Positions 4,564 through 63,720 of a DNA stretch of 64,000 bases are shown piece by piece (the stretch's first letter is position 1; each line of letters opens with the position of its first letter). The position numbers were made by a program, and so were the translations under genes. This DNA comes from Tigriopus japonicus (Eukaryota > Arthropoda > Copepoda > Harpacticoida > Harpacticidae): NCBI GenBank assembly GCA_010645155.1, contig CM021314.1, positions 2,860,219 to 2,924,218 on the forward strand, read 5' to 3'. The notes beneath the pieces are model-generated. The model worked only from the letters and a program-made list of their open reading frames with translations, searched no databases and had not been told where the DNA came from.

Positions 4564-5323
4564 TTATTCCTCGTTGTATTCCTCGCTTTCGTCAAAAAGT
4601 GGCTCGCGACTCAACCGATGAAGACGGGCAAAAATGCCGTGCTTGGGCTCACACTGAAAGTACAACGTGCCACCCACTGAGCCATTGTTTTTGCCCAAAG
4701 GTTTTTCGAGGTGAACTCCGGCAACTTCTCCACTCGCGAAATGCACGCCCCCAATGAAGGCGATGCGTCCGTGCTTGTCCCCATCCACCCAAACTTGTTG
4801 GCCAACCATTAAGTTGGAGGTGTCATCATTCAGGACGCGATCAGAAACGGAAGGTCGTCGAAGGCCAGCCTCGCTCAGCCTCCTTCTCTCGACCTCGTGG
4901 GCGTCCGCATCAGTTGAAGGTCGGCGTCCGACCTCTTCTTTTTGCACTGTGTTGTTGTTGCTGCCGCGTCTGAGATTACTGATCCCTTCGGAGGGTCGAC
5001 GATAGTTGTTGTTGACGGGAGATTCTGAAGATCGTCGGTAGTTTGCGTTGTATCCGTTAATATTTTCAGAGGGTCGCCTATCTCCCAAACGAGGACTTCG
5101 GGTGCCTGTGCCAAACCCTTCCGAGGGCCGTCGCACTCCGGTTCCATTCTTGTTGAGGGATGAAGTTGGTCGGGTGGAGGTTCGATTTCCCAAGTGATCG
5201 ATGGAGCCAGAAGGTCGTCTTGAGGAAGATCCTCCTTCCATACTCAATCTCCGTGCTTCTTGAGCAAGTTTGGTCATTTCAGGATCTTTTTCAATCCTCA
5301 CGTCACCTCCCGTGATGTAGGAT
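4564..5323 (-). CDS. CAP-Gly protein exon 2 (CAP-Gly domain 2) and stop
   Basis: Begins after an acceptor ending TTCAATAG and continues the frame of exon 1. Its layout repeats exon 1: an EARRLS segment, a Ser/Arg/Asn-rich stretch, RRLSEAG-RRPS, then CAP-Gly2. CAP-Gly2 has GKNNG instead of GKNDG and GEVAGV where exon 1 has GDWAGV, so its groove may be altered. TAA is followed directly by TAG; I see no donor near the end that could bypass the stop. Confidence 0.85.
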
Positions 5324-6251: not shown

Positions 6252-6963
6252 TCTGAGTGGAGGGCGAGTGTGAATAAGTGGTGAGTGAGTGTGTGAGTGT
6301 GTGTGATGTGTGAGTGGTGGAGCAAGGCACCTCTGTGTTGAAGACTCAACTCCAACGGTGGTATGCACTAGAAGCTTCAATCGAGGATCAAGGAGGAAGG
6401 GGAACTCCAACCGTTCTATGAGTAACAGAGATAATAACGCTCCCCTAACTTTGTACGTCTAGCGGTCGTCGTGATTGAATTCGTTTAACAATTTTTCTAC
6501 GAAATCAAATTGAATGTGGGTGAAGGAATGCCTCGCCAGTCACAACTGTCACAGTTTTGGGTCACGTTCTGAATGGTTCACTTTCCAGGAATGCGACGTG
6601 GAATTCTCATTAAGACAAGTCAGGCAAAATTATTCCAAAATGAGATCTTCAATATGGAGATGATGGGTCCGCTCCTGTTCAAGTTCAAATTCGACTGACT
6701 GAGCACAAAGTCGTCTGATGAAAAGATTTGAAGTGTGGAGGTTGGAAGAGGTGGCTGGTAAAGTTATTTTTCTCCAATCATGTGCGATCATTCTCATACG
6801 TGGGATCCACCGAGCACTAATATTCGGGGGCGTTCTCGTCTCGTCGTCCTGAAGAACCATGTCTTGGGGCACAATTAACAGGCTTTTCCACTCGTATCAT
6901 GACCGACTCGGCCCAGAGGCTTTCAGTTTCACCCACTGATTTTTCTTCTCCATCTCGCTCGCT

Positions 6964-13925: not shown

Positions 13926-14470
13926 TTCCAAAATACATCTTGGGTCCATTCAGCAAAATAAAAATTCAACAGAACAATATAATTGTGACAAAAACAGTAA
14001 AATAAAAATTCAACCGAACAATATAGTTGTGACAAAAACACTAAAATAAAAATTCAACCGAACAATATAATTTTCACAAAAACAGTAAAATAAAAATTCA
14101 ACCGAACAATATAATTGTGACAAAAACAGTAAAATAAAAATTCAACCGAACAATATAGTTGTGACAAAAACGGTAAAATAAAAATTCAACCGAACAATAT
14201 AATTGTGATAAAAATAGTAAAATAAAAATTCAACCGAACAATATAATTGTGACAAAAACAGAAAAATGTAAATTCAACCGAACAATATAATTGTGATAAA
14301 AGTAGTAAAATAAGAATTCAACTGAACAATATAATTGTGACAAACACAGAAAAATGTAAATTTAACCGAACAATATAATTGTGACAAAAACAATACATTT
14401 TAATACAATAATCGGACCCAAGGTGTATTTTTGAAATCCGTCCCAAAGCACAGTAGTTCCTGGATTTGGT
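13926..14470. mobile_element. Inverted-arm element carrying a minisatellite
   Basis: The left arm (about 13926-13950, ending CTTGGGTCCATT) and the right arm (about 14411-14440, beginning AATCGGACCCAAGGTGTATT) are imperfect inverted copies that face the tandem array between them. The outer boundaries are unclear. This suggests a non-autonomous DNA transposon whose centre became a tandem array. Confidence 0.45.
13955..14394. repeat. 44-bp minisatellite, ten copies
   Basis: Ten head-to-tail units of 44 bp, each starting AAAATAAAAATTCAACCGAA and then an ACAATATAATTGTGAC core. Variants are shared in a pattern: units 8 and 10 begin AAAATGTAAATT, and units 7 and 9 end in ...CAGA. The distal half therefore looks like an 88-bp dimeric repeat. 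No ORF of interest. Confidence 0.9.
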
Positions 14471-20900: not shown

Positions 20901-23900
20901 TGAAATCATTCCGGGAAACGTGCAATTAATACTTCCATATTTAGTTCCAAGAAGTTTTAAAGGTATCAACATGACCCAAAAAAACTGGCAAGGTTAAGTA
21001 AGCCCATTTTTGAAAGGTCACAATAAGCGGAATCTTTTAGTGTTTCAATTGTTTGTGGAGCTTCATTTTTGTGTTTAAAACTGGGGCCATTAGTGTATCA
21101 TTGAAAATTGTTTTGCCTATTAACTCTGCATTGTGATATTCTTTTGTGCATTTACAGAAGAAAAAGGAAATGTTTCACTTGTTTAATATTTGTTGAAATC
21201 AGAACTGGTGGTCCCAATTTCAAGTCCTTTTGTTTTGGTTAGTTTTAGATCATGTACTGCTCATAGAATTACCAATTTGTAGTCTAGTCATATTTAATAC
21301 AGATCATGAGAAATTGGAAATATTCAGATTCCTTTCTCGAGCTTTTTTTACTCGTTACTAGGGCCCGGAAATATTTTTTTTTTTAAATATAAATATTTTA
21401 AAAATATTTCCCCACTTTTCCCCGATTTTTTAAATATTTTGGCTGTTTCAAGGAAAAAATAAATATTTTCTCGAATATTCTAGTCAAAAAAAATATTTCG
21501 AGCAAAATTGAGGAAAAGAAGTGAATGACCAATGCTCAATAGAGCCTTTTCAAAATGAACCCAAAATACAAAATCTCTACAAAATGGCATTTGTACTAAG
21601 ATTAGTCATTCACAATCAAAACTATTGTCACATACGAAAAAACTGCGCCATCTATTGAGGCAAATTGAAAATTGTATTGTTTAGATCAGTTACATGTCAA
21701 GTTTACCCCCCAAAACGGCCATTCGCATCAATTTCACGAGAAACAAAGTTGGAAAATCGGTGCACACAGACAAAAATACCAAAAAATGGCCTTGTCAAAA
21801 AAATATTTCTTAAATATCCGGCTTTTTTCCAAATATTTTGGGCTTTTGGAAAAAATATATATTGGATATTTTGTCACTTTTTTGCAAATATTTTTCCGGG
21901 CCCTACTCATTACTGAAGAGCAGGAATTCGTAAATAAATCATGGAACGAACAATTATTAGGAATGGGTTGGATGAGGCTTTTAACTACTTTTTAATAATA
22001 TTAATGCATTCAATAACCTACTACTCCCACATGATTTATTTGCTTTTCATTGGTCCTTTTTCCTGAAATAAGTAACTTTTATTCTACAAAACGGAAGGTA
22101 TTACTATGACAAAGTTAATTTTCCAAGTAATTTGGCAAGTATGTTCATCAAATATCTTTTTTTGATCGGATCCTGAGTATTAGGATCTGAATCGCAACAA
22201 AGAGTCGATCCATCCCTACCTAACCCTAATCATTCTCCTAAATTTGGATTTATGATTTCAAAGTCTTTATTTCGGCTACGTGAACTCACACCGTTGAAGG
22301 ACGACATCAATTTCTATTACCACAGAACTCAACCTTTTTCCTCGCTCACTTTCTGACACTGGTGGTTTTCCTCCTTTTCAGAGTAAACTTATTCAAAAAC
22401 TTGGCGATTCGGCATTCCCTTTTGTGTTGAACTTCCCCAAAACCGCCCCCAATTCGGTCCTAATCAAGGGCGAGGAAGGCGATGCCTCCAACATGGGCGT
22501 CAGCTACGACGTCAAACTCCACGTGGCCGACAACTCGGAAGACTTTAAAGGGGCCAAGAAGGCCAGTGTGTCTATGGGCATTCGAAAGGTGAGTCCACTT
22601 TCGAACAGGTTCATGGGAAATGGAAAGTTTTACAAAGGTGAAAACTTCTGACATTTTTTCACGTTCCATTTTTTCAAATTCCTGACAGGCATGGACAAAT
22701 TCTTATCGCCAAGACGAGACAGTTATTTGTTTTGGTGAAAGTGATTTGAAAAGCAAAAGCAAAGGACTGCTCTATATATTACAGTGCTCTAGTTCCGGGT
22801 ACAATGGCGCATTTTGGCTTCGTTCTCAAATCCTACAGTTGGTAGATGGAAAGCTTTTAAGCGATCCTTAATTGTCCACGCGAAGCTGATTTGGACAAAA
22901 TCTGGCTTTCACAATTATCCACTTCCTCTTTTTGTCTAAAACAACATCAAAAAAAATATATTATCTCTCAAGACATCCTTTGTTTTACCAAATTCCCAAG
23001 CCTAAATTCTCTTAGAAATGAATGTCTGTCTTCTCAAGGTGCACATTGAGCATCTCTGTTAGTTACAATTGACCCTGAAACCAGGGAGCAATGAGGAATT
23101 CTCAGCATTGTTGTTCCACATTCTTTGAACTACTTTCCACGGAACAATGTCAAACGGTGACAAAATTCCCTTTGTTCCATCTCCTTTCACTCAGGGGACC
23201 ACTATATGTTCCTGGCATCGATTCCATGATCGGTCCAATTTTCCTTGGAAATGCTTCAATGACACAGTGCCAATGATCTTATTGGGATCAATTCACTCAT
23301 TCCACTAGCAACAACTAAAACTGATTGTAGTGATGGACCAGAAGGGTTTTTGACCACGGTTTCGGTTAAGCCATCATTTGATAGCTGACAAGAACTAAGA
23401 AGAAAAAATGAAGAATTTTGTTCAAGTAAAAAGAGTGCAAGGTGACTTCATACTGTAACTGGCATTTATTTAGGCGGAAACGAGATTTCCATATCGTTTT
23501 TTAGTGCTTTCGGTCCATCACTAACTTAATGGGGTCATCGAGTTCCCTTCGAACTTGAATGATTTAAAGAAATCCATTTTTTTCCTGAAAAAGAAAAATA
23601 TTGTTCATGATAGAAAAAAGGGAATTATATGAAATAAAGAACAGACTTACTTAAAATTTACTCTTTAATACCGAAAGTTTTAAGTAGGTCTTGACATCAG
23701 AAACAGGGCAGATTTGTAAATGAACACGTTATGCTGGAAATACTGCAAGAAACCCAATTCCTCGTAAACTTCCGAGAACCCTCTAACAATAACATATTTT
23801 TCTTCATGTTTTTTCCTCAAACGGTTGACAACAATAGTTCATTGTGCCTTTGAAAAAATAGTGTTTCGTACTTTCAAAATATTTGGGACATCAACATTTG

Positions 23901-26900
23901 AAGCAATGAAATAAACCGCATGAATGCGCGCTTTAGATATGCAAGGTAAGCTTTTTCAAAAACGTTGCTTTCCCGCCCACTTTCGGCGGATTCATAGGCA
24001 AGTTGATTCATTCAAAATGGTTCTTGATTGGCTTCTTGTGGGGTTTCATCAGGCTTACTTATTCGTATCTCCATTGAATTGGAAATAAACGTAGGAGAGG
24101 TAAAAATAAAGATTTGATTGCTCAATACTAGAAAATAGTAGAGCCACTATATTAAGAGAGTTCCTCACAATATCTTTCTGCTTCCAACCTCTCCACCTAG
24201 ATATCCTTTTCTAGACTACAATGGCACAAGAAGGAGAGTTTCCAAGTTTAAGAAAACACAAAGCTTGTATAAAATGCAAAACAAGTACATGATATGAAAA
24301 ACAGATAATCCTTAGAATATTTGTGATGCCATTAAAAATGAGTTATTCATAATGCGGAATCACAAGGGGAGATTTGTTAAACCCCTAAGAATTTTGGCAC
24401 AAAATTTGTGTTCTCTTGTGTCCATTGTGGCACCTTTTGTGATTACATTGTATTGTGACCTCCCAATCAGCGGTTACAGAAGGACTTTTGGGGGATTTAA
24501 CTTTGTCTTCCTCAAATACTACAGTGGCTCTAGAAAATGAAATATTTGGTTTTCAAACTTTAATCGAAGTTAGGATTCATGCATCCATGGAAATGTAAAT
24601 AATGTTCGCACTCTCAAAGCTTCATTCGGAATTTGCTCTTGCTCTCTTAATCAATGAGAAACCTTTCGTCACCTCAAATGAATCGGACTGATCTTTTCTT
24701 TGGGGCAATCATGAACGTTTGGAAAGGTACCTGAATTCAGATTGCTTCATTGGGATTCTAAATCTTGCCACGTGACTTTTGGGTCTCCCCAAAACTCGAT
24801 CTTGTCTATGAAGAAACTAAGAATCAAACATAGTCACGAAACAAGCATTCGTGCTTACTCAAGAGCATTTCGAAAGCACTTGTCCTCATAACAATGGGTA
24901 TGGTACAATGGTACGTACTCTTACATTTTCAATATTCGTTCAAGAACAGTGCACGTGCCAAACTTTTTCTCACATTTAGTTTGGAAAGGTCTCGTGACTC
25001 AAGGGAAAAAAATTATCTACAAACTATCGAGATCTTGTATAATTTTGTTTTGTTTTTGATCCAAAAGCTGTGGTGATTAGGCGTTGTCTTTCGCGTTGAT
25101 ATTTGATCGCATTTCAAATAAAACATAACATGAAACATTGAAATTAATGGAAAACTTTGATGGCTCAATATTTTAGGGAGCACGTTTGATATGCAACAGA
25201 TGTACATGGAGGCTACTAAAATATTGATCTTCCTTATATTTCACACCCTCCTAATGTACATCAAATGAAAAGGTAACATTGAGACTTAGTTGAATATGAT
25301 GGCAGACACTTTTTATAAGTCAGAATAATGTATGTCTGAAAAGGACGTACGTAAACAAGCACACTTGTCAATTAAATGATCTTTTGAAGATGATTAAAAG
25401 TTTCTTGAGTGTATATTCTTAGTATGCTTCATTTCTTACGTATGGTAACAGTACAGACGAGGAAGAGACAAAAACTTGTGATTTTCTAAGATATAATAAT
25501 TGATAGATTAAAAACTGAAAATAAAATTTTTGAAAGACATTTTGCTGTTCCAAAGTGATCTCGCTTTTGAGAACCGAGTAAATTTAAAAGTATATTTTTT
25601 ATATGCGGGGATCATTTTGCCACTCAAATTTAAGGCTGATAAATTTTCGTTTTATTTTAAGGGGAATATTTACAATGTGGCTTGACTATTTTTATCTGGC
25701 TTCCATGTATTCGGGTCAAAATAACCAAAAACAACCGAAAAGGGAACAATATACGTATTTCCCAACAATTATTTGCAAATATATGCTTTCCTCCATGAAA
25801 TATCATGGATGGAAATCTGCCACACCAATCAGCTAGGCCCCAGAAGATAATTTTATTTTGCTGTGGAACAGAAATCCCAGACGTTTCGAGGAGTAAGGTC
25901 AGCTGAAGATAACCATCAGCTGACCCTACTCTGTGAAACGTCTGGAATTTCTGCTCCACAGCAAAATAAATTATTTTTCGGGGCCTACGGCAATCACTAT
26001 GGAGGTCCCATTTATTCATCTTGATTATAAACCTTATAAACATTACAAACATTACTTGTTTATAATATAATAATCCTATCGCAATGTAGTCTTAGCGATG
26101 AATATTCTTATTCAACATCCTGACTGACTAAGAGAACACACGTTATATAAACGATGGGGCATGGAATGAACGACAGTTATCAGCTCTTTCTTGAATACAC
26201 TCATATGCAAATCTGAAGTCATTCATTCATATGAATAAGTACATACGGTACTGATTCCTTTTCAGAAAAAAGTAGAAAGAGTCTTTATGGACAGGAATGA
26301 AGACCAGAACCATTATCACAGCTAAATAATAAATATATCTAAAAGCTTTCCGATCAGAAATGAATAGGGCAAACGGATTTTCCAATAACGAGAAAACGCT
26401 CAGCCGGAACATCCTGGTTCATTTCTCCTTTTTTTAAAGTGGACCACTTCTCTGTTCCCAAGCAAGAAACACACTCAGTGATTAGAGAACGAACGAGAAA
26501 TAACACTTGGAACCAACAATCACGTGAAAAGTCAGCCCTGCAGGGAAAAAGCGCATTTACATAAAACACAGAATGAAGCTTCGAACATACATTCCCCGAA
26601 AAGCTTCTAAGGTTAACATTCTCAATGACTTCCTTTGACCCTGTATGTTATCCAGATTACCTTTGACAGACCATTTACATTTTACAAATATACAACTTGT
26701 CAAATTGAAACTAAAAGCACCGCCATTCATTCATTCATTGTGGTTAAAGTGGTCCCTGGTAGAATTTGTGAGTACCCCTTTTCGTGTGCTCTGCCCAGGA
26801 TGTGATCCCTCTATCAACTTGATCATATTTCCTTTTGTCCTGATTACCAGTAAGAGAAAGATCATTAAAGCTCAATTGTTCCCCTTTTCCTCATCCATTT

Positions 26901-29900
26901 AGGTCCAATGGTCGCCCATCAACGACAAGCAACGTTCTCCCACGGCCACGGCTGATAAAGGGTTCCTTTGCTCCAAGGGCAAGATTGTATTGGAGTGTAC
27001 CTTAGACCGTGAGATCTTTTACCATGGAGAGGAGATACCTGTTCACGTGTCGATCCACAACAACTCTAAGAAGTCCGTGAAGTCCATTAGGGTAATGTGC
27101 ATATCGATTTCCAAACTTAACCACAATTTATTTGAAGTACAACTCAGTCGAGGTAAAGAACCTCTTGGAAGTCGAGGGTCTGCTGTCGTAAGAACAGTAC
27201 CAGGAAAACTCCTCGGAGCAATTTTCCTTTTTTATCACGAAACCTCACTCGAAAGTTTCATTGCTTCAAGTTATTTTTATTGATGACAAAAAAAGGCCAG
27301 GACAAATGAGTCACATTGGCGAGTGGTTTTCATTTTGAAACTCGAAAGTTCCTCACGTTTACGCTTGACATGAATCACCAATTACCCACGAAACTGCATT
27401 CATGCCTCAGTTTCGAGTCTATTGTTAGTCGGCTGTATTCACTCACGTGGAATGGAACGTTTAGCTTGTTGTAATGGATTGACATCTGACTGGGTCACCA
27501 TCGTCATTTGTCCCTGGTCACGTTTCCTCTGGATACAAATATCCACAGATAAAGCCAGAATAAGCTCAACCCATCGACGGCAAATCACTAACCCACATTC
27601 TACGTACAGTGTCTCCCAAGTCCGTGACATCAAATTTGGCCTTTTTTCTTACAGTGCAGCATCAATCAACATTGTGAGTTAACCATGGTCGGGGCTCAAT
27701 ACAGTTGTAAAGTGGCTCGTTTGGAGACCAAGGATGGATGTCCCCTCGGACCTGGAGCTTCCCTCAATCGCACGTTCACAATGAAGCCTCTGGCTCAGAT
27801 GTGTGCCCATGAGCGAGGCCTAGCTTTGGACGCAGCTTTGAGCAAGGTAACCACCCAAAAAAGTGTCTTAGGAGACGAAAGCTGTGGCGAGCGATAAAAC
27901 CCGTGAGCGGTGGATGAAGATCCCCATCGATCCCAGTCAATCCCAAGACACATTAGAGTATCTAATTTGCTCCGAAATAGAACCAATTGTCGGTTAGCCT
28001 AAGGGAAACGGAAGAAGATCGATCAATTAGGTTGTTTACACGTGGATGTTACTGAGAAAATGACTTCACGTTCCATGATGGAGACCATCTTGATTTGGAT
28101 TCGAGACCTTAGGATCGTTTGACATTTGCAAACTTTCAGGAACGATTTGGTTTCTAGCAAACAGCGACTCAACTTTGGGGCAGAAAAATGTATCCAAAAC
28201 TTGTTTGGAGGCTGGTATTATAATTAAAGGCCACATTTAGATTCGCGTGACGAGACAGACCAAGAATGTCAAGGCTGAGAATAGCCCCTATCCCTAGATA
28301 TTTGGGGGTGAATGCAAAACAATTTCCATTACTATACTCGTTTTCATACATGCCGATGATGTGATGGTTTGTCCATTCAGCGAAACAAAGAACAACCACG
28401 AGAAGAAAAGACAAAATGATTTGTTGTGATGCCTGGAAAATCTAAGATGCCGTAATAGATTAGGGAAAGGATCCAAGAAAATGTTAATATCTAAAGTGGA
28501 TGATGGTTCCAAGACCATATTTGACACTCCATCAAGAACCTCGACGGCATTGAATTGAGTGACCACGTTTTGTAGAAGGCAGGAAGCACTTAATGCTTTA
28601 AATGCGATTATAAAATAAAGTGGGAACTTCTGAAGCGACGAAAATGGGCACGCTTTGTTTGGCCACATCCGGTTAAATGGGGAAAAGGCTACATCATTAA
28701 CTTAACCATACTACATCTCTTTTCAAAGCGAGATGGCTTTTCTATCAGCTTCCATTATGAACAAGAATGGATGAAAGCTTTCACAAGAAAATGGATATCG
28801 AATCGATTGTGATGAACTGCCATTGAAATTGATCGAACAATCGATTCTCTTTTCAAGTGAACATATTAGTTCAAATCAAAGACTTGGGCTACTTATTTCA
28901 CTCATTGTGGTTTTCCGATGGGGTTTGTAACGCTCAAAACCAATTTATTTTGGTTCTTTTGTTCACAGAGCTTGAGCATTAACATTGAAAATGCTCGAGA
29001 TTGTGATGATCCACAACATATTTCTGGCTGAATACATTTCCACATAGTTCTTCTAAACTATTACCAGCTTATTTAGAGGTATGAAAATGTGGAGAGTGGG
29101 TTTGAGGATATTTTACTCTAACATAACTACCACGTCATTCCCGATTTAAGAATAATTTTGATATATGAATAAATGTTCTCTCACGTCCTTTGTGCCACAA
29201 AAAAGGATGGCTCGATTATTTTCAATTCCGTTAACATGTCAAAAGAAGATCCATTTTTTATGTCTGGTTAGAGTTTTCCTCCCACAAAATGGTCAAACAT
29301 TTAAGAAGACAAATCTTTGTTCCTTGTCCACCTTCCAAAGGGGCGATCATATTTAATCTCGAAAGACCATCAGTTTTCGACACAGAAAAATACGTTACTT
29401 CTGAGCCACGTCCAGTTATGTATGACGTTTTGGAGAATTTCTTATTCCTAATTGGCAATAAAAAATGACAAATCTGTCCCTTCGCAAGACTTGTTTTTTA
29501 ATGACTTTGATCTTTTCAAAGACCAAGCTTCCGTTTTTGGAACTGAGATCTCTGTAAATAACTTGTACTCAGATCACGACACAACTTTGGAAATTATCGA
29601 ACAAAGGATCTATGACACTTGCTTTTTGTTTTTCCTAGAAAGTAGTTGCCCAATTAAAAGCATAGAGTTCGGTTCTAAAAAGGTAACTTCAAATTAGTAA
29701 TTCCACCACTGAAGATCCTTTTCCGACCAACTCTCAAGCAGAAATTGTGTTAGAGTTAAAACATTTTGGGAGAACAAAACTTCTGTTGCTTGCTTCTCTC
29801 TCTTTAGACCTCTGTTTGAATTCAACATATCAAATCTCAACGACAAATGATTCATTCATTTTCAGACTTCCTCAAAGGCCATAGTTTCTTTTGTCTTGGG

Positions 29901-46750: not shown

Positions 46751-49483
46751 GATAGTTCAAGAGGAAAATAAATAAACATTTTATGGAGAAATATCAGGTT
46801 ACTAAAATCAAAGCAAAGAGAGAGACTTCTTTTGGATTTTCTTCGTCCTTGAGCAAAGAAGCGACGAGCCGTTTTTTACGAGGAACTCTTAAACGAGCAA
46901 AAGGTCAAAAAGTTAAATAAAACTATTTTTCAATCTAGAAGAATACATGGTTACTTGACGAAGAGTTAATGGACTTTACACATAGCTTCGGGGCCCACCA
47001 AAAACCTCTATTGGGCCCACCTGTCTACTTCATGAACAAGACGAGGCCGACAATTTTGATATTTGTTTTTCACTAAAAGGAATAAACAGAGGTAGAAAAA
47101 GCTGGATTACATTTGAATTACGCATGTACATGTCTAGAAGAAATCCCAAAATCAAGATGATATTACTGTTGTCACAATTGTGAGATTTGGGTTCAAACAG
47201 ATCACAAAGTCACTATAGTTTAATTTTCTAATACGCGTTTGCCTGGTTCAATTGTCTCCAAGTTTTGCTCTCAAGACTAGATCTTTTTAATTGTCCTCTC
47301 TCGGCATATTTCTCATAGATTGAATGCTGAGAATGTGGAAGAGTCTAATCTAGCTTTGGATGCTTTTATCTACTTCTGCCCCAACTGTCCATCAATTCAG
47401 CAATCAAATGGGTTCAAAAGCTATCAGAACACATTTCAAGATACACTTTTATTTCCAAAAAAACTAGTTGATGAGTTCAAAAGTTCAAAGTTGTTTTCAG
47501 CCTTCGTGCAGTCAAGTTCATTTTGTTCACTTATGGGTACTTGGTGTTCAGATTTGTCTAATACTAGTTATTGCCCACCCTGTTAGCATTAATTCTTTAG
47601 TCTCTAGGATAGCAAACATTTTTTTGTCTTTTATGGACTTATGGACTCTCAAAGGCTGTTGTATCATAACTCAGGTCCCACAGGGTTCCTTTGTGATCTC
47701 AGTAGTGTCTGCAGGATGGTTAACTTGACATATTTTTTGATTGTTGTCCTTCTTAATGGTTTCTCTGCTAATTAAAATTATAAAATAGAATTTCAATGAA
47801 ATAGGAGTTCAACACCGTCAAATAGTATTGCTTCTTTCCCCTTTTATGCACGTTGATTACATTGAAATTAATTTCTGTTCCGATTTACTAATGACCAAGA
47901 CGAAATTCATTATGGTTCACGTCTAGCTCTTGAGTATTTCTTTAAAACTAGAAGTATTCGTGATTGAACAAAAAGGAAATTGAGCCTCAGGTTTCTAGAT
48001 CCGGTCAACAGGTTTTACATTGCACTTGACCAGAAATGGTCACTCGAACTTTTCATGACGCAATATCCTTGTGTCCTAAAGACGTTTTTTTTTAATGACT
48101 AGCAAAACCTGTACGAGCAATCTCTGCCAGTTTGTGAAAGGCTAAGTACATTGGACAGTACTTTAAGAATCAATCTAAGAATCCGGTCTGACATGCTCCA
48201 AATTTTTCTTTATAATTTCATCGATTAGGACAGACTTGCTTGTTCGAAAAACCGATTGCGGCCAACCACGTCCATTGATAACCAACGGAGTGTTCAGAGT
48301 TCATTCCAACCACGCCGTTACTTAGCTCCAGTTTCACATTTCAGGCAAGGTCTTCCTGTCACCGAAATTGAACCACTAAAGTGTACAATGCAGATCATTT
48401 GTTTTGTTTGTCTCATTGTTCAATTGGCTTCGGTCTATGATGTGTACATACTACAAAGGTCCACCATATCATCCAAGCACAAACACACATCCAGGCTCGA
48501 CTACATAAACTGAAACTGTGTGTAGTGTTCTACAGAAGAGAATAGGTGAACGAGAACACTATTTGCTCAAGATCTGTGTGTCATGTGTTTGTCAAGGTTG
48601 TTTGGGAAACGAGCAAGAGAGAAGGAATATCATCCCGGAATGACACAACCAAATAAAGGGTTAACGCACAGACGCCATTTCATTTGAACTGGCAAGCGTT
48701 TGGCCGCCTTAGTGACGTTTTTGTTTGTCTTTAATGAGAAAGTTTGGTCCAAATGATGTTTTTAAATTCTTCACTAATTGATATACGTTTAAGTGAAGGC
48801 AAACGATTGCAACTGTAGATTCATGTAGAAAATCGTCGTATAAGAATGTTACTCTCTAAAAACTTGTACTGTTGATACTAGTGTGAAGATGGATTTCATT
48901 GACTACAAAATAATTCATATAACTGGCTGATGTGGGAGATAACCATCGGATTATGATACACTTCTTGTTATTTTATCGACTATGTATACCCTGCAGTATT
49001 ACTAAAACCATCCTAGAACAAAAAGAGGCAACTGAAAACAATCCAATATTTTAGGAGAGAAAAGTAGTACTTAAAACGTATGATATTCAAAATTCCCACT
49101 TTCTTACTGTTTACTGTACTCCGTTTTTGTCACCATGTCGTGTCAAATATGGAGAACTAGCAAAAAGTGTATCAGTTAGGGCTAGAAATTTCATGCAACT
49201 CAAAGAGTCATGAATGCTCCATTTCGTTCAAGCCGCAAATATTGATGGGTTGGCTGATTTTGATTGGATTCATATATTCAAGATTCGAATATATGCTGAA
49301 ATGCGGACATTGCTTTAAGCCAATCAGTACCGTGCATGCAGTGGCACGTAATATTTAATTTAAATGTGCAAAAAATGTATTTGATTTAGCCAAAACATTA
49401 TAACCAGGCCTAACAAATTTGGTAAAAAACATTGCAAAAAATGTATTCTTTTTGGTAATCATTTTGGTGATCACACCTGAAAT
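46751..49483. other. Non-coding stretch with possible retroelement traces
   Basis: No supported gene. Around 47460-47730 one plus frame contains PVSINSLVSRI and further on QVPQGSFVISVV, reminiscent of reverse transcriptase blocks but too short to call. At about 48387 a short ORF begins with a hydrophobic MQIICFVCLIVQLASVYDVY after a good acceptor-like CACATTTCAG; this may be a signal peptide or chance. Confidence 0.3.
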
Positions 49484-49490
49484 CGGGAGG

Positions 49491-49603
49491 GACTTGGCCT
49501 GGCGTCGGACGGGACTCGGCCTGGGATCTGAGGGGATTCTGCCTGGCATCGAAGGGAGGCTCGGCCTGGCATGGGAGGGAGACTTGACCTTGCACTGGGG
49601 AAC
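49491..49603. repeat. GC-rich 22-23 bp minisatellite, about five copies
   Basis: Imperfect units centred on GGCCTGGCATC/GGCCTGGGATC repeat about every 22-23 bp. It stands out from the AT-rich surroundings and creates overlapping ORFs on both strands. Confidence 0.7.
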
Positions 49604-51289
49604 ATCCCTTGGCGGAGATGGCTTGGTGGAAATCTACAGGGAGACATCACTTTTGGGGGAGTTGTATGGGAACCAGTTTTTTGTCCCAAATACCAAAATA
49701 AGGACCAATGTTGCAACAAAATACCTAAAGTTGAACTCAAAACATATCAACAGTCTGTAGAAATGTGGATAATGGGTAAGGTGTAAACAACGGGAAGCCA
49801 ATTCACCTACTACGTAAATTCTACAAATATCGGAATTAAAAGGCTTTGGTTTTGTTTTTCATTTCAGTTAGAAGCAAATGAAGCTTGTTTATATACCGTA
49901 AGAAAATATGTTTTTGGACGTTTTTTGTGTATGGGGATGAAAAAGGGGACCCCGGGACCCTTAAGAAGCGCTCAGGAGGCCCTGACTCAAAAATGTTTAA
50001 CAACCCCCTGTTCTAGACTAATCGAAACCCCGGGTGGTGCAGCAGTTTTTTGTTTTAAATTCAATTCTTTAGTGTATTTCACATTCTTATTCAAAGTCAA
50101 TTTGATATGTGAAACAATTAGGCAAAAAGGGGCCCTTCATCGTTTATCTTCTCAAGTCTTAGTCTATCTTAGTCTTCCTCAATATTTCCAATGTTGCCGA
50201 CATGATTTGAACGACCTTGATGTTCACTGTCTTGACACACATCCAATTAAATGTGCTTTGAACTTTTGAACTCTAGTGATTTTCCTATCGCTAAACCCCG
50301 AATGGGCTCAATATTGTATATTCACAATAACATATTGTATTTATAATCTGACATTACGTTTGTACCGTATCTATGAGAAGCAATCTCGCAATAAAGATTA
50401 TTATTATCATCAATTTCTTTTAGTCCAGCTTTTTATGAGTCACTGTATTATGATACATTACTAGTTGATAATGTTCTCTTTTAAAAAGAACGACACATTT
50501 TTTAAGAAACAACTAAATGATGCATGCACAGGACGCATGAACGCAGTCATATTTCTGAAATAGGCACCCAGTAAGTGTTGACTTACTTTAAAAATGATAA
50601 ACGCTAAAAACCAACATTAAGTCCCGGAAAACCACGTGACAAAAAAAGCCCAAAAAGGAGGAAAACTGATGATCAAGTTGACAGACTTCCAAAGAAAATG
50701 GAAAGCTAGATTGAGACTTACGGCAATTAGACGATGAAAATTTAATAAGTCTAGAATGACGACGGCAAAGCATTGATCCTCACGATTCGATTCTTTTATC
50801 TTTACATTGGTCTATTCACTCTTATTGGGTATTCACTCGGTTCGTTAGTTAGTTGGTGCACGCACGTATAGATCGATCTCAAAGGCCCAAGATTAGGCTT
50901 CCATTCCCCAATGGGTAATCTACAACGTACTGTACTGCACAAGAAACCAACTTTTTTGATAATGGTGGGTTTAACTTTGAACACGACTGGAATGACAGAA
51001 AAGACGACTTAACATATATAATTTGAAGAAATGCATTGCAAAAAGTCCATTTTACACGCACTTCGGTACTTTTTTATCGCAGGGTAAGTATCAAAGTGTT
51101 TAGAAGCTAATATATGTCTCAAAGGTGACAGTTTGCTCAAGGTGAGAATGTATTTTGAACATTTCACACAAGTGCACGATCAAGTGATCCAAAAACCATG
51201 ATCAGTAAGGACAATAAAATCAAAAGAGATTGCTTCTGGTGGTCAATCAATCGATGAAGACCGATGATAAGGCAAACAAGGCCTCAAAT
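49604..51289. other. Non-coding stretch upstream of the LLRF precursor gene
   Basis: No supported gene. AT-rich sequence with short unconvincing ORFs. Confidence 0.35.
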
Positions 51290-51819: not shown

Positions 51820-51857
51820 TATAAACAAGGCTATCGCAGAGGGAGAGCTCGTCATTC
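51820..51857 (+). promoter_or_regulatory. TATA and initiator candidate, proximal promoter of the LLRF gene
   Basis: TATAAAC at 51820-51826 followed 34 bases downstream by an A within GTCATTC (51854). It would give a leader of only 18 bases before the ATG at 51872. Confidence 0.35.
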
Positions 51858-51871
51858 ATTGAGACAGGACC

Positions 51872-52160
51872 ATGCGAAGAAGGAAACTCATCAATGAGGA
51901 CGAAGACAATGAAGACCAAGCCAGTTCGAGTTGCCACCTTGCCCCTGACACAATGTACCACCTCTCTGGTCAGCACTTGATGTCGCCAAGAACTCCTCGT
52001 TACAGATCCTCAACCAATCAGTCTGACTCTCGTTGGCTTTGTTCCTCATTGGGGATCACGTTGTCCTTCTCGTCGTCTTATTTGATCTTGATCGTTGTGG
52101 TGGCTTTGATTTGCCCTTCGGTTAGTGGCTATCGATCACCGGGAGCTTTGGAATACAATG
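51872..52160 (+). CDS. LLRF precursor exon 1 (signal sequence)
   Basis: ATG at 51872 (GGACCATGC) to a GTGAGT donor, 96 codons plus one base. In-frame ATGs at codons 28 and 37 would give a more usual signal peptide; from codon 1 the hydrophobic core is preceded by more than 50 mostly polar residues, so the true start may be downstream. After SVSG the chain continues YRSPGALEYN. Confidence 0.75.
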
Positions 52161-55100
52161 GTGAGTGAGAGAGATCTTCCTCCTGGGTGTTCATACGTGA
52201 TACTACACTCTCTACATAGAATGAATCTACTGAGATTGAAGTGACACTCCACTTAACGGAACTGGATCCATGTCATTTGATCTGGAACAAAAGCAGCCTC
52301 TGGCTAAAAGGACTGACTCCAAGCATGATTTAGACCGTCTGTTGTGTTTCCGGCTCTAAGAATGCGAAACAAGTCTGGACAAATAATATTCATTATCTAT
52401 CCGTGTTTGTACATGTCTTGGTGAGCAGATCAATTTGAATTAAAGGTTCAACGCCATCTCGTTGGCCCAAGATCTTGGCAAAACATGAAGGATTGCTTTC
52501 ATTTTGACGCTTGTTCAAGAGGCTTCTAATGAATAATTGATATTCTTAGTCTCCTGAAATGTACATTAGTTGGAACACCCGATGCATTCGGGTTGCAAGG
52601 AAACAGGAACTCAGACCAAAACAGAGACAAGGATGAAGCTTTTACAAAGCAATGTTAGCAACTCATGGCAGAAAACAACTCCTATGAAGACTTTCTTCTC
52701 GTTAAACCAAGGAATTTATTCGTATGTTGTGTGTTGGAAAATGATCAGTGACGTTCTCCGAAGAAGTGATTTCCTTGAGTAGAGTTGAATTTCGAGACAA
52801 TTACATTGTTTTTGGAAAAGAATGCCTTAAAAGCAAGTTCATTGGGAGATTTCGTAATTATTTATGAGATGGATGCATTCTGAGCAACCAGACGAAAACT
52901 TTCTGTTATGTCTTGGAGATTTTGGGATTAAGTGGGAAATTGTTAGAGACCAATCTTTTTTACCAAGGCTAATAAGAAGCTACTAGAAATAAAGTGTTTT
53001 TTTTGTCCGTTGAATATCAATTTATTTTCAATAAACTTTATTCATCTGTAGCAATAAACTGATGTTGGGTTTTTGCCCATTATTTTTCCACCTTGATTCG
53101 GGTCAGTGTCCGTTTTGAGGTCTAAATCAAGTCAAAATGAAACAGAAATCTTCGATTAATGTATTGACTCTTTAAAGCTTAGAAATGGAAATTGAAATGA
53201 ATTTGGTTTGTCATTTGGGATCGGACCATCGATACCTTGAATTGTGGTTGTAGTGCTACATTTTTCAAAGACAATTTCGTAAGTTGTCAACAAGCGCAGC
53301 AATAATTGAACAGAATGCGTCGTTCCTTCTTCGTTAACATGTTGCCAATGCATCCTTCCTGCTCAAATGGACAATGTAATTTGACAAAATATTATTATTA
53401 GATCCTAGTTTGACCGTCGTATGGTGGCCCCAAAAAGGCAAGTTGGCTCTTGTCGGAGGGGCTATTAAGGACAAAACCCAAAAGGCTTCTGCTCGATTTC
53501 CATTGTCACGACGACAAAGAGCGTTTTTTGATTCACACGCCATCACTTTACATAGCAAAATAGAGCGTTCAGTATTAAAGCTTTCCCATCACTTGCTTTC
53601 TTTTTCATAGTAAAAGTCAACAATTGGAATGTTTGTCTTCGATATCGAGTTTCGACAAAAGTTGTTTGCAATTAAAAGTAGGTGTGGTACATTTGTTAGA
53701 GAACCTCTATCATTTCACACGAAATGTATGGTTACAGTCTGAATTATATACAAGAATATTGTACGTCAGCAGCTACATTATTTTTTCTGATATGTAGGTA
53801 CACTCTGAATGTCAATTTCGTTCATAGCGAAAAGCATTTCAATATCAAGATTTAATGTAATGTCAATTATTCTTATACCTGACTCACTGAAAATGCCTTC
53901 AAAAAGTGCAATCAAATTCAGGCTCATGTAGTCGTCTGGGTAGAGTGTTAAGTTTTTATTTTTAAAGTAAACCAAAGACAAGTTAGGTTAACGGGCCTCG
54001 AGTATATGTATAATCAACGAAAATTAATCTGATCTGGTTTTGATTTACTCTAAAATAAAAATTGTGTTCGTTACTATGTGAACTTGTGTTGAAAGAGCGC
54101 CTGTCCTTGATCAAACTTCTGGGATGTAATTGTTCAGGTTGTCTTGTTGTCATTTCTTGTTGTGGGACAAAAATTATTAATTTTTGTCCCACGCCAGACC
54201 ACACGAACGACCAGATAAATAACGCACTCATTTTCATAAAAAAATGCTCGATTACTGATGGCCACATTGCTCTAGGAAGCAGATGAATTCAGTATGATTA
54301 CTTAGGTTGTTGCAAGACAAACACAAAGTCATGAAGTTCGAGTAATTTTGAGATTTCAACAGCTTATCGTAAATTTCGAAAATTAAAGCGCCTTTCCTCA
54401 GTCTTTCCCAAATGGTATGATGGCTTGGAATACACAATAAAAGTTTGCTATCTTATTGAATGCACTGTTAAATACGGAAAGCTAAAATTTGGCCTTGATT
54501 CAATTCCCCTTTAACCTTAAAAAGATCAACACAAGGTTCGCACAACGAAGCCAAATGATATTTTTGATTAAAATTTATTGCTGGTAACTTCTTGGGCTCA
54601 ACCGGGAGAAATACATGCGGTACGAATTAAGACAATATGACTTCCAGTTTCTGTTATTTCTTGAGACTTATCAAGACCTATCTTATCATTTCATTGCAGT
54701 TTGTAAGCATTGTTAACGACGAAATAATGACTACTTAGAGTACAAGAACTAGGAACACACAAGCCTTGTTACTGTGACAGAGGTAGTTCCTCTCAAAACA
54801 TGCCAAACAGAAATGAATTCCCACCTGGAACAATAATGCCAAGACTTCTCTTTTGCATGATGGCAATTTGACATGTCTACTTTTCTTTTGACCCCTCAAT
54901 TTCTTTTTTCACACCATTGCAGAGAAACAGTATGGATCAAGTTCGACACTTCCCTCAAATTGAGTGGTATTACGTGTCCAAATGAGATAAGTGCGTTTCC
55001 CATTCATTGACCTCTTTCGTGTCTAGTTATCTATGTATTGACTTTGGTGGCATGAACTCAGGCTAATTCACGTTCATTTGATCAAGATCATGTAGACCAT

Positions 55101-56864
55101 TTTAAGACTTAAGTAGTGTCCCCAAAGAGGATTAACGTTCACTTTGATGACATTTGACATTCTTAAGTATCTTGGGAAAGTGGAAAGGTTTCTTTTGGCC
55201 TTTAAGAAACAAAGAATACTTGTTAATATCAACCTTGGGTTCTTCTTTTGAAGTGTTCACTTAAGGCCTCAAAGGATTTTTTTTAAGGATCAGTACTATC
55301 GACTTTGTTGAGGAGACAAACGACTCGGAAAATACTGAAAATGTAAGCCCTGAAAACGCTCCCGAAAATACTCAGATATACTCTTTTGAATCAATAGTTT
55401 TAGCTGAAACAAAAGCTAAATTTTGCATGTGGTACATATTTACTTTATGTGCTCTTTCCAAGAAACCTCCAACTGTTTACCATGAAGATTGAAAAATGAA
55501 AAAAAAATGTTTATTTCGGGATTCGTCAAAAAGTCTGAATACACATTGCTTTACGGACAAGTAAGTTCGTAGATAGATTCTAGAGGTAAATCTCCTGACC
55601 TTACATGATCTAAGCTAACAGTAGTTTAATTGAACTGAACTTGAAGGACGAAGAGAGCACTGAAGACTTACTACAAAGTTCACGTGATGGGTATTTGAGG
55701 TAGTGGAAGTTGGATTAAAACCCGGATTAAAGTGGAACTTTGTAACAACTCCGTGATCATAGGAGCGGAACGTTTCCAAAATTGAGGCACAAAAAGCAAG
55801 AGAAATAGAGATGACTCGTAAGATCAGACGAGCTAATAAAGTCATTCCAACAAACAATCTACCTCAATTCTACAAAGTCTGATGCTTTTAAAACTGACGT
55901 CCCTTTTCAAATACGGCTTTCCTTTTTTACAGAACTGGCTCCTGTGGAACAAGAGAGCAGCCAAGAGTCTTCAGATGTGGTTCCCACTTATGAAGCTCTC
56001 GAGGAACTAGCCAACACATTGGCCTCTGAGGGGTCTGAGGAGGACCAAGGAGACAACGAAAATGGGTTCCAAATCCCCTGGTCATACCTCTTGGATTCAA
56101 GGCCTCGTCGATCCCATTTGCATCAGGATGAACATCTCCTCCGTTTCGGCAAGAGAGCCCAAAGTCCCATGGCCAATTATGCCAACCAGCCTCTTGATGA
56201 GGACAACGTGGAGCCAAGAGCTTCCCGGAGTGGCAATCATCTCCTTCGATTCAGCCGAAGTGGACCCGACCATCTCCTGAGGTTCAGTAAACGAGATGGT
56301 GCCCATCTATTACGATTCAACCGTGCCCACGACGACGCTCATATGTTGCGTTTTGGCCGTAGTCACCCTGACGAGCCTGACACCCAACAATACCGGTCGG
56401 CTCGAGCGGGAGAAGAGCATCTTTTGCGCTTCAGCCGAAGCGGTGGAGACCATCTCCTACGTTTTAGTCGGGGTGACGAGGATCACCTTTTGCGATTCAG
56501 TCGGTCTTCACCGGACCATTTGCTTCGATTCAGTCGGACGCCAGGCAAGATGTTGCGGGCCGTTCGAACTCCGGAGTTACTAAAGAGATTCCAGACGGAT
56601 TTAGGGGAAGACGGCACCGATTTCAACCGGATGAACCGAATGGTGAGCAACGATCATTTGTTGCGCTTCAGCCGTTCCGGGGCGGATCACTTGCTCCGGT
56701 TCAGTAAACGAAGCGCCTCCAATGCCGATGATGACGATGATAACAACAACGACGATAGCCACCTCCTCCGATTTGCCCGCGACAGTAGCAATATGGACAG
56801 TGCACAAAACGGCCCACAGAATAGATTTACCCGGCAAGATTCCCACCTCCTCCGATTTGCTTAA
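51872..56864 (+). CDS. Multicopy HLLRF neuropeptide-type precursor
   Basis: Two exons (51872-52160 and 55933-56864) join in phase 1 across a 3.77-kb GT-AG intron, giving 406 residues. Exon 1 encodes a hydrophobic segment (LILIVVVALICP, about residues 71-82), a likely signal peptide ending SVSG. Exon 2 encodes an acidic spacer and 13 copies of HLLRF or HMLRF. Two copies are followed by Gly and basic residues, predicting amidated SHLHQDEHLLRF and AHDDAHMLRF (or shorter forms). Eight are followed by Ser, one by Asn and two by Ala, so they cannot be amidated; examples are SGPDHLLRFS, SGGDHLLRFS and QDSHLLRFA. Copies are separated by Arg or Lys-Arg. DHLLRF recalls myosuppressin (DHVFLRFamide) and sulfakinin (GHMRFamide), but neither family has this many copies. 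Secretory regulation, presumably neural, is an inference. The first canonical downstream AATAAA I see is at about 58079. Confidence 0.85.
54162..54192. repeat. Perfect short hairpin in the LLRF gene intron
   Basis: 14-nt arms GTGGGACAAAAATT and AATTTTTGTCCCAC around a 3-nt loop. Confidence 0.7.
55933..56864 (+). CDS. LLRF precursor exon 2 (peptide array)
   Basis: Acceptor TTTTTTACAG. Opens ELAPVEQESSQESSDVVPTY, an acidic spacer, then the array. Between the ninth and tenth copies lies a degenerate stretch (KMLRAVR, ELLKRF, DFNRMNR) that looks like decayed repeat units. An Asp/Asn run precedes the twelfth copy. A near-unit NRFTR sits before the last copy. Ends directly after HLLRFA with TAA. 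Confidence 0.88.
56133..56861 (+). repeat. Coding tandem array of 13 HLLRF/HMLRF units
   Basis: Unit spacing in the compact parts is 10-12 residues (30-36 nt). The residue after RF is, in order, G, S, S, N, G, S, S, S, S, S, S, A, A. All Ser codons are AGC or AGT, Asn is AAC, Ala GCC or GCT, Gly GGC. Confidence 0.9.
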
Positions 56865-57806: not shown

Positions 57807-60160
57807 TAAAACGTACTAATCTAATGGTTTGCTTGATTTTGAAATATATTTTCACTTAAAAGAACGAGAGTCTCAATGATCAAGAAGAAACAAATTGTGC
57901 CCTCATGTTTTTCGTGAAGAACGAGGATCGCCAAACCAAAGGAAGAAACTTGTTAACTGTACACTCAGACGTCGAAAACTTTTTTGTTTCAATCGTCCAA
58001 AGTTACAGATTTATCATAATTCTGCTTAGTGCATGAAATAATCGAATTATTTCATATCAAACAGAAACAGCAGTCTAAAATAAACAATTCTTACTAACTT
58101 TTGGATACAATAGAAGAGTGTAATACTTATCACATGTGGGCTGAAGTGTAAAAGCTTAAAACGTTTTCCCTTTTAACTCTCAATCTAAACACATATCTTG
58201 AGTGGTTGTCCATTAAACTGCAACAACATAAACATGAACTCATGAAGAAATATTTGCCTGAAACGTGACCAAACTATTGTTGAATTTCTCTTTTTAAAGT
58301 TTAAAGATCCCCAATTGTAATTCCATTAATATTTCATCAATATAAGAATTTGGAAGTACATTGGACTGCAATTATCAAATAATCGGGACATTCTTTACTT
58401 TTGCAATTTGGACAATTCGATCGTGCTAGATATGTTCAATTTTCAAAAGGAAATCGTTTGAAAGGACTCTTCTCCCAAAAAAAAACATCAATTTTTAATC
58501 ATAGAAGAATTTCTTTTTGCTAACACTCAACAACAGTCAATCAGTGTTCTACTCCAAAGATGTCTTTATTTGCTAATTTTGGTTATAAATAATGATTTTT
58601 TTCATTAAAATGAGGAAAAAAGAGGAAAATTATTATTTGTTAATAATAAAACAAAAAAGTAAGTTAAAAATAATTCACAACTGTTATAGAGTTTCCCTTT
58701 CTTTAGTCATGACAAATTTGAAAAAAAAAAAATTCTGAGTAAGTATCTTTTGGAGCCACCCTGTATATTTCCAAAGAAAAAAGACGGCTACAATTTATTA
58801 AAATTCACAACCTGAAAAACTACCAAAGCTCGACCTTAAAAATTAAGCTTTAAGCACTTCTATTTTGACCGTGCCCACCTGATGGTTATCTTATTGAGTG
58901 AACAAAGTGAAAAATCGGGGGTAAGGAACACACGTTACAGGGACAGAAAGGTCATTCAGAGATCAATTGCCACCTTCAAATAGCCATTGAAACGAACCAA
59001 CTGCTGCGAGGAAGGCCGTCAATCCTGATCAGCGGACATGTCCACCTTAAGTACATAAATTAGGCCGTAAAAGTAACGCAGACAATGAAAAAACAATGGA
59101 AGCAATTCGGGACTTTCGTCTCAAAGGAAGAAGAGGGGTGTAATGGGGTCATGGCCAATGCAATTTATATTGTACTCAACTAAGATGTGACAGGAATATT
59201 CAAGAAAATCAATCACTTCATTGCTGAAAAATATCAAAAGTTGAATACAATGGGGCATGCACAAAGGTTGCTCAAGTGAGCGTTTTAAATCATACCGCTG
59301 GCGGTAAAACTGGGCCATTGGTTGTTCTGAGTTGCTCGGCCCATTTTGGCAAAACCAAGTCATTTCAAATTTAGCTTGTATTCAAAAATCTTCGGTTCAT
59401 GGAATGATCGATATTTCACGTTAAGATAACTCGATGGGAGTTGGGTCAATAATACATAAAATTCACTTTCAGGGTGAATGAAAAAAAACCCTTAAGCAAG
59501 CCATGTGCCATTACAAAAACAGGATTAAACAATAAATTAAAAAAAATAATGATCCGTATTTGTTCTGCTGATTCCAGACAATCATCAAATTTCTAAAATG
59601 TTTCCCATCCCGAGAAATGAAATAGTTTTTGCTACTCCTCTCCCGAAATGGATGATTTCAAGTAACTCATTTGCTAGTCAATAAACTGAGCATATTATCA
59701 ACCAGGTGTACGCAGTGCTATCCAAAAGTAAACTAGCGACCATTTCCAGGGACCTAGACTTACTAAATACATGCAAAAATTGATATATCTTTAATTTGCT
59801 AAAATGGACCGAGTAATTAAGCACAGCCAAGGGCCACTGTTCCCCTGCCGGTTTAACTTCGGGCATTAAGACGTCGTCTGTCCGACTTTTTTAGTGCTGT
59901 TTTTTTAAATGAGAAGTCAAGATGATCCAATCGGTTGTGGGCTGAAGACGAGATTATTCATGAGCTTACATATCAGTTCCTACTTAACCTTACTTAAAAT
60001 AACTGGACACCATGTGAAATATGAAAACAGGCAATTGCTTACTTATGCTTAGTATTGCTTACCATGGCGGCCTAAATCATTAGGCTCAACGACTTCAGTA
60101 TCATCAAAGCAAATCTTTAGCTTGGATGAATTGGATGAAGATTGGAGCAATGATTTTAGG

Positions 60161-62814: not shown

Positions 62815-63720
62815 TTAGGCTACCAATGAGTAACTGTTGGCAGATCTGTACAACCCTTGAATAGTGGATTGGTCAGGAATAGTATCTAAAAATTTGTCCA
62901 ATACTGCCTTAAATGCTGTTAGAGAATCAGCTCCTATATATGCCCGACGAAGACTAATGGACAACAAATTGAACAATGAAGGAGCCCGATAAAGAAGAGA
63001 GGAGGACTTTATTGATCGAACTAGCCTCGATTCTCTTGGATTTGGAGGTGCTCTCAGAACGCATGTAAAACCTCTACGATCGCTACAACTGATCTCAAAA
63101 ACTTTGTAGGGACAGAGCCCATGAACGCTCTTGAAAACATACAATAGCATATACCTTCCATGCCGGCTCTGATTACTGTACAACCCTAACTTCTGGAGCC
63201 TCTCCCAATACGAGAGCTCTCTCATTCTTGTGATGTTCCCAGTGAAACATCCTTGGAACTGCTCGACCTTTTGCAAACCTGCTGAACTCATTGAGATCCA
63301 AACGGGTGAGGCATGTTCAAGATGTGGCTGCTTGTCACTAAATAATCCTTCAACCTTAATTTGCTTCCTTTTGCTCATGAAACTATCAGTCCAATTTAGA
63401 ACCTTACTCTGGATCCAAAAGACTTCGAGTTGATTGAGCAACAGACCATGATTTACCCTATGAAAGGTCTTGGCAAAGTCAAGATAGACTACATCAACTG
63501 ACTCATGACTTCCGAGCCCGTCAATAATCTGCTCAATCTATGGTCAACCAATTAGGTTACTACAAAATGGGCACGAGACCCATGCTGTCCAGGGGGAATG
63601 ATGTCATGGACTTCCAAATAATCTACAAGTTCGGACTTCTTGATTTTCTGATGGAACTTGAACTCGATTTAGTTTGCGTGCTGCAATATTGGTCCTTGTT
63701 TAGGTCTTTATTCAAAAAGT
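62815..63720 (-). pseudogene. Non-LTR retrotransposon reverse transcriptase, internally deleted
   Basis: Reading the minus strand, KIKKSELVDYLE and DIIPPGQHGSRAH are followed after a frameshift by VDVVYLDFAKTFHRVNH, reverse transcriptase motif A with its catalytic Asp. The frame then runs LLNQLEVFWIQSKVLNW, but jumps from FSDKQP to HLEHASPVWI, so the SGVPQG block and the FADD catalytic block are missing. The C-terminal part (LSYWERLQKLGLYS, HGLCPYKVFEISCSDRRGF) is nearly complete. Family resembles jockey/CR1-type elements common in arthropods. Inactive. The sequence from 63790 to the window end is open on the plus strand but unassigned. Confidence 0.75.

Follow-up and report, generated by a model that had tools for sequence, protein, structure and literature searches.

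A two-exon gene of the copepod Tigriopus japonicus encoding a candidate precursor of many small, mostly non-amidated HxLRF-X peptides

A two-exon gene with a precursor of 406 amino acid residues was found on the forward strand of a 64,000-nucleotide stretch of Tigriopus japonicus DNA, here called the window (51872-52160 joined to 55933-56864). We consider it, with a probability of about 85%, to be a copepod prepropeptide gene that would yield many near-identical small signalling peptides, mostly free acids and likely neuropeptides or hormones. The name HxLRF-X is a name of convenience coined here for precursors with several H[LMF]LR[FYL]-X units, where X is a small residue followed by a basic residue or by the C-terminus. 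The window gene has this arrangement.

Coding exon 1 (51872..52160) was defined by tblastn with the database protein P0001, by the sequence and its translation and by the upstream codons. It starts at the first in-frame ATG, which has an in-frame TGA 12 nt upstream, and ends in phase 1 (G|). It encodes a 69-residue N-terminal region (51872-52078), a hydrophobic leader and the start of the propeptide. The hydrophobic core of the putative signal sequence, read from the translation, covers the residues 70-82, YLILIVVVALICP (52079..52117), and signal cleavage is expected after residue 86 (VSG|Y). The intron of 3772 bp (52161..55932) runs from the donor G|GTGAGT to the acceptor TTTTTTACAG and splits a Glu codon as G|AA, correct in frame. 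Exon 2 (55933..56864) contains an acidic propeptide and 13 H[L/M]LRF-X units and ends with a stop codon at 56862-56864. The original prediction had placed the peptide exon exactly here, which agrees with the acceptor before it, and had assigned the signal sequence to a separate exon, which is the exon found at 51872-52160. A TATA-like element as a putative core promoter (51820..51825, 46 nt before the ATG) and an AATAAA as a putative polyadenylation signal (58079..58084) were recognised by pattern match only; both are on the forward strand.

The region in front of the leader is unusually long for a signal sequence, and over its first 29 residues the alignment rows of P0001 and P0002 show no difference to T. 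californicus. Such a long region could make the secretion less simple than assumed. A filter for a splice donor and hydrophobicity gave two false candidates for the signal exon, and the true exon was located through P0001. The filter overlooked it probably because only about the first 25 residues were searched and the leader lies 69 residues in.

P0001, a database protein of 406 residues, was returned by the protein search with exon 2. When it was compared to the window by tblastn, its residues 1-96 were found at 51872-52159 and its residues 95-406 at 55926-56861. The joined window translation is identical to P0001 at 404 of 406 positions, with differences at the positions 88 and 322. The source contigs of P0001, whose label 'lgn' we take to denote an assembly of public read archives, have a maximal length of 2202 nt and cannot contain the 3772-bp intron. 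This points to a spliced transcript, and we infer that the gene is transcribed and spliced. P0001 joins both exons, as expected for the spliced multi-copy peptide precursor that had been proposed; the lack of a joined transcript, which had been named as an argument against the proposal, does not apply.

Other features were observed in the window. Arrestin-like open reading frames lie at 22298-27280 on the forward strand, where Arrestin_C was matched in 26903-27280 with 39.9 bits (cut-off 27.7) and Arrestin_N in 22298-22648 with 23.3 bits, slightly under the cut-off of 24.9. On the reverse strand, two reading frames at 4567-6458 contain one CAP-Gly domain each, of the microtubule-binding type, and a frame at 62818-63537 reads in translation like a reverse-transcriptase remnant, with no Pfam match at 0.001. 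Tandem repeats are found at 13951-14392 (44-bp unit, 10 copies, 89% matches) and at 49482-49584 (G-rich 22-bp unit, 4.6 copies), the latter within an open frame at 49404-49757 that has no Pfam match.

The 13 units of exon 2 comprise 12 HLLRF and one HMLRF. After one further residue, a single Arg follows in nine of them and Lys-Arg in three, and the last unit is followed by the stop codon, so the number of units and the cleavage sites agree with those first described. In 20,000 shuffles of the 309 residues of exon 2, H[LMF]LRF occurred 0.003 times on average and at most twice, and the six frames of the whole 64 kb contain it 14 times in total. All units were read from the translation of the forward strand. 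Unit 1, SHLHQDEHLLRF-G-KR (56112..56147), is predicted to be amidated. It is followed by unit 2, SGNHLLRFS-R (56229..56255), unit 3, SGPDHLLRFS-KR (56259..56288), unit 4, DGAHLLRFN-R (56295..56321), and unit 5, AHDDAHMLRF-G-R (56325..56354), for which amidation is predicted as well. The units 6 to 9 are AGEEHLLRFS-R (56406..56435), SGGDHLLRFS-R (56439..56468), GDEDHLLRFS-R (56472..56501) and SSPDHLLRFS-R (56505..56534), and the units 10 and 11 are MVSNDHLLRFS-R (56640..56672) and SGADHLLRFS-KR (56676..56705). Unit 12, SASNADDDDDNNNDDSHLLRFA-R (56712..56777), has a long acidic N-terminal extension that may be trimmed. Unit 13, QDSHLLRFA (56835..56861), abuts the stop codon, and its N-terminal Gln could cyclise to pGlu. 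The residue after RF is Ser in eight units, Ala in two, Asn in one and Gly in the units 1 and 5.

From this arrangement a processing pathway can be proposed. The hydrophobic leader, a feature of the sequence, would carry the precursor into the secretory pathway. Prohormone convertases would cleave C-terminally of the single Arg or Lys-Arg present behind each unit, and a carboxypeptidase would then strip the basic residue. Eleven of the 13 peptides would stay C-terminal free acids of the type HxLRF-[S/N/A]-OH, as the Gly for amidation is absent, and RFamides could be formed from the units 1 and 5 only. SGGDHLLRFS-OH and pQDSHLLRFA-OH are examples of the expected products. Their most likely role is that of neuropeptides or hormones, which would bind to a G-protein-coupled receptor recognising the D-H-x-L-R-F core together with the small C-terminal residue; a neural or neuroendocrine function is presumed. 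The peptide nature had been proposed with an end at HLLRF. The multi-copy precursor stands, whereas this end does not, with Ser, Asn or Ala after RF in 11 of the 13 units.

Relatives were collected in three homology searches, each limited to the 8000 candidates with the most words in common. With exon 2 as the query, 24 proteins were obtained at E <= 10, none of them with an E above 2.8e-5. In the two profile searches, where the proteins that build the profile score strongly by construction, a profile of 17 proteins (16 relatives and P0001) gave 57 proteins at E <= 1, 37 of them new, and 19 proteins at E <= 10 were obtained with a profile of 14 distant members, with 14 below 1e-5 and 12 new ones of 61 to 95 residues each. 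The closest named relative is TCAL_02713 of T. californicus (P0002), a 'hypothetical protein' with 82% identity over 100% of exon 2. Tk09629 (P0003), which has a gene-model name only and by its name pattern presumably comes from T. kingsejongensis, shows 59% identity over 91%. An 'uncharacterized protein' of the salmon louse Lepeophtheirus salmonis (P0022) has 33% identity over 63% and contains seven units, mostly HMLRF, four of which end with Thr. Only these three have informative names; P0013 is again listed as 'hypothetical protein'. Since Tigriopus belongs to the Harpacticoida and Lepeophtheirus to the Siphonostomatoida, the family is found by name in two copepod orders, and its distribution is possibly limited to copepods.

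Some family members showed peculiarities. The gene model of P0003 passes from unit 12 into a retroelement-like tail and lacks unit 13; this aberrant tail is probably a gene-model error. A weak RVT_1 match (E 0.073) was seen in one of 17 scanned members. Two sets labelled 'merc' consist of near-identical proteins with varying unit number, the first with P0008, P0009, P0011, P0014-P0016, P0021 and P0031 and the second with P0033, P0034, P0038-P0042, P0045, P0046, P0048, P0050 and P0052, which suggests copy-number variation within a species or assembly collapse.

The units were counted with the pattern H[LMFIVY]LR[FYL]. The count covers the 61 proteins obtained in searches one and two, P0001 included, and leaves out the 12 proteins of the third search (P0062-P0073). 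We found 474 units, a number that is descriptive and does not represent independent observations because many of the 61 proteins are near-duplicates. With this pattern 53 of the 61 public proteins carry at least five units, the number for which a search had been suggested. The residue preceding the His is Asp in 351 of the 474 units. The residue X after the aromatic one is Ala in 317, Ser in 80, Asn in 48, Gly in 15, Thr in 10, Met in three and Val in one; thus 455 have Ala, Ser, Asn or Thr, and Lys or Arg never occur. Exactly one residue separates the aromatic residue from the basic residue or the protein end in 472 of the 474 units. The last unit forms the C-terminus in 37 of the 61 proteins and ends with Ala in 34, with Asn in three and with Gly in none; that it abuts a real stop codon is established from the window sequence only. 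Many of the 24 proteins that have no terminal unit look like fragments or wrong models. Cleavage after a single Lys, which is less usual than after Arg, is implied by 107 of the 474 units.

With one residue in front of the cut or the protein end, and with the last unit at the C-terminus, X should belong to the mature peptide. Amidation requires a Gly (PMC6502818), and the lack of Gly in most units indicates that the mature peptides are mostly free acids, HxLRF-X-OH. The mature peptides are predicted to end with a small residue behind HxLRF, mostly as the free acid. Arg-Phe-Gly, from which an RFamide can be made, is present in the units 1 and 5 only, that is in two of 13 units here and in 15 of 474 in the family. 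For the lack of Gly after RF, an interpretation of the units as RFamides in general was rejected. We also discarded the view that RF merely belongs to an R-x-x-R site for cleavage, as the last unit retains LRF or LRY plus Ala or Asn where no cut is needed.

The conservation along the precursor was analysed with the two Tigriopus-like proteins. Compared to P0002 of T. californicus, all 78 residues of the core and X and all 15 cleavage residues are identical, but only 121 of the 168 spacer residues; for the four residues preceding each core the value is 47 of 51, and for exon 1 it is 78 of 93. Compared to P0003, with the aberrant tail included and without unit 13, the core and X are identical at 74 of 78 positions, all 15 cleavage residues are retained, and the identity is 65 of 142 in the spacers, 28 of 49 in the four pre-core residues and 23 of 80 in exon 1. 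A conserved core with variable spacers had been named as the pattern to be expected of homologues, and the comparison with T. californicus shows it. Along the precursor, the variants follow one order (G, S, S, N, G, S, ...) in the three Tigriopus-like proteins over 12 units, the sole exception being Asn in place of Ser at unit 9 of P0003. The variants specific for a position, Gly at the units 1 and 5 and Asn at unit 4, are kept in all three. The 13 core copies of the window have 12 distinct DNA versions, with a pS of 0.93, near saturation, and a pN of 0.085. The copies seem old, each under a constraint of its own, and do not appear to be recently expanded. As the cores are conserved beyond the spacers, selection appears to act on the peptides. 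Conserved cores and cleavage sites with variable spacers make it very probable that this is a genuine multi-copy peptide family.

We considered whether the gene might instead be a member or a divergent copy of a known RFamide family with multiplied copies, namely of the myosuppressins, the FMRFamide-like peptides or the sulfakinins. The core D-H-[L/M/F]-L-R-F resembles the salmon louse myosuppressin pEDVDHVFLRFamide (PMC6502818), the last peptide starts with Q-D after Arg in six of the 37 proteins with a terminal unit, and Gly is present in two window units. The Pfam family FARP matched the window exon below the threshold (12.1 bits, cut-off 15.5, E 0.32) and two of the 17 proteins of the family alignment with a best E of 0.11. 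In addition, all eight Ser at X are encoded by AGY, one base from the Gly codons GGY, and the other Ser of the exon by 13 AGY and 14 TCN, a bias with a Fisher p of 0.012 that is weak evidence because the copies are not independent. The HxLRF-X gene may therefore descend from an RFamide gene, and its peptides may also function in the manner of RFamides. Present membership is unlikely, however, since 459 of the 474 units, among them every one of the 37 C-terminal units, lack the Gly for amidation, and the window exon matched no Pfam family above its cut-off. In the salmon louse, myosuppressin is encoded by a gene of its own (PMC6502818) beside the HMLRF protein P0022, and the copepod FMRFamide-like peptides listed for two species are FIRF, FLRF or FVRF amides (PMC12035899). 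It is on this literature and on the gene pair of the salmon louse that the proposed separation from the canonical RFamide genes rests. An orthology to a known RFamide precursor, the second argument named against the original prediction, was found neither with Pfam nor in the available parts of PMC6502818 and PMC12035899.

The Pfam scan of the 17 proteins of the family alignment gave scattered weak matches, the best to a zinc-finger model with E 0.00048 in three of the 17, and a profile search of solved structures gave PRDM9 with E 5.3e-5 and two weaker matches. These matches were rejected as probable artefacts of a repetitive profile rich in basic residues and His.

It is very improbable that active RFamides are released from the units 1 and 5 only, with all remaining units having decayed or serving as spacers. 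The Gly of these two units is retained in the three Tigriopus-like proteins, but the units without Gly are conserved just as strictly in T. californicus, with the 78 identical residues mentioned above, and many relatives have no Gly unit at all, such as P0006 with Ala in 15 of 15 units and P0012 with 11 Asn and one Thr. Repeats and a secretion signal, taken alone, would also be compatible with a secreted repeat protein of antimicrobial or structural rather than signalling function, which is equally improbable given that the predicted peptides are not cationic (net charge, K/R minus D/E, from -6 to +1, and 0 or -1 in ten of 13), that no cleavage residue differs in either comparison and that the last unit so often is the C-terminus.

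For the preferred reading, a multi-copy precursor of signalling peptides, the literature was searched. The strings HLLRF, DHLLRF, DHMLRF, DHLLRFS, HLLRFA and HMLRFA were not found in the searchable paper text, which excludes figures and subscription papers. Only HFLRFA gave matches, which were taken as 'HFLRFamide' in myosuppressin-like names. In the copepod context, LLRF appeared in the spider peptide NHNLLRFa cited in a 2025 review (PMC12035899), whose section 6 on FMRFamide-like peptides does not mention a 13-unit HLLRF precursor. No such family is named in the titles and abstract openings of the copepod and louse neuropeptide papers among the matches listed. HxLRF-X is likely a new family.

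We tentatively propose that copepods have an RF-peptide system of their own that is independent of amidation, in which the Gly of an ancestral RFamide was replaced by Ala, Ser, Asn or Thr and a dedicated receptor has no requirement for the amide; this is a possibility to which we give somewhat less than even odds. The C-terminal amide is generally regarded as a requirement of RFamide receptors. If the proposal is true, Tigriopus makes amidated and acid forms from one precursor, with two Gly and eleven other units. A copepod peptide family with an RF core that lacks the amide allows a direct test of how peptide and receptor can leave amidation behind. In Oithona nana, seven 'FMRF amide receptors' are reported among the genes raised in males (PMC8301441), so that several candidate receptors of this group may exist in copepods. 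Whether they are linked to HxLRF-X peptides is speculation. Copepods are key members of the plankton as well as fish parasites, and for T. californicus and the salmon louse the databases list the product of this gene as hypothetical or uncharacterized. A name for the HxLRF-X gene closes a gap among the peptides annotated for copepods.

Among the known peptides, myosuppressin is the nearest in sequence, with D-H-V-F-L-R-F-amide compared to D-H-[LMF]-L-R-F-X-OH. Both have a D-H-x-L-R-F-like core near the C-terminus and a secreted precursor, and the N-terminal Gln-Asp is found in some relatives. The myosuppressin consensus is X1-D-V-X4-H-X6-F-L-R-F-amide, and the salmon louse gene has four exons and encodes 137 residues with one amidated decapeptide (PMC6502818). 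A single peptide per precursor is usual for myosuppressin (PMC12035899), whereas the window precursor has 13. These units are mostly non-amidatable, have one residue fewer from His to Leu and carry an extra C-terminal residue. The consensus H-x-F-L-R-F occurs in none of the 13 window units, which are all H-[LM]-L-R-F. The salmon louse has both genes, the single-copy myosuppressin and P0022 with seven units, and the HxLRF-X family appears to be separate from myosuppressin.

The precursors of crustacean FMRFamide-like peptides (FaLPs) are cleaved at basic residues and resemble the window precursor in having multiple copies and an xLRF motif. FaLPs are N-terminally extended YLRF, FLRF or FIRF amides, and the 2025 review gives two to four FMRFamide-like peptides for Cladocera and Copepoda, with two FIRFamides in Calanus finmarchicus and, from two transcripts, three FLRFamides and one FVRFamide in T. 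californicus (PMC12035899). Unlike these, the units described here have a His before L-L-R-F, occur in 13 copies and have Gly in two only.

With the sulfakinins the units share His-Met/Leu...Arg-Phe and acidic residues upstream. Sulfakinins have the form ...DYGHMRFamide with the core Tyr-Gly-His-Met-Arg-Phe-amide. They usually occur in two copies (PMC12035899). In contrast to them, the window units have no Tyr-Gly before the His, one residue more from His to Arg and mostly no Gly after RF, and the string Tyr-Gly-His-Met-Arg-Phe does not occur in the translation of the window precursor. Neither the myosuppressin nor the sulfakinin consensus is present in the 13 units, which agrees with the early view that the core is close to these two peptides but distinct, with a copy number unlike either. 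Orcokinins are multi-copy, non-amidated crustacean peptides, and the predicted HxLRF-X peptides resemble them in their many near-identical copies and their free-acid C-termini, with an unrelated sequence.
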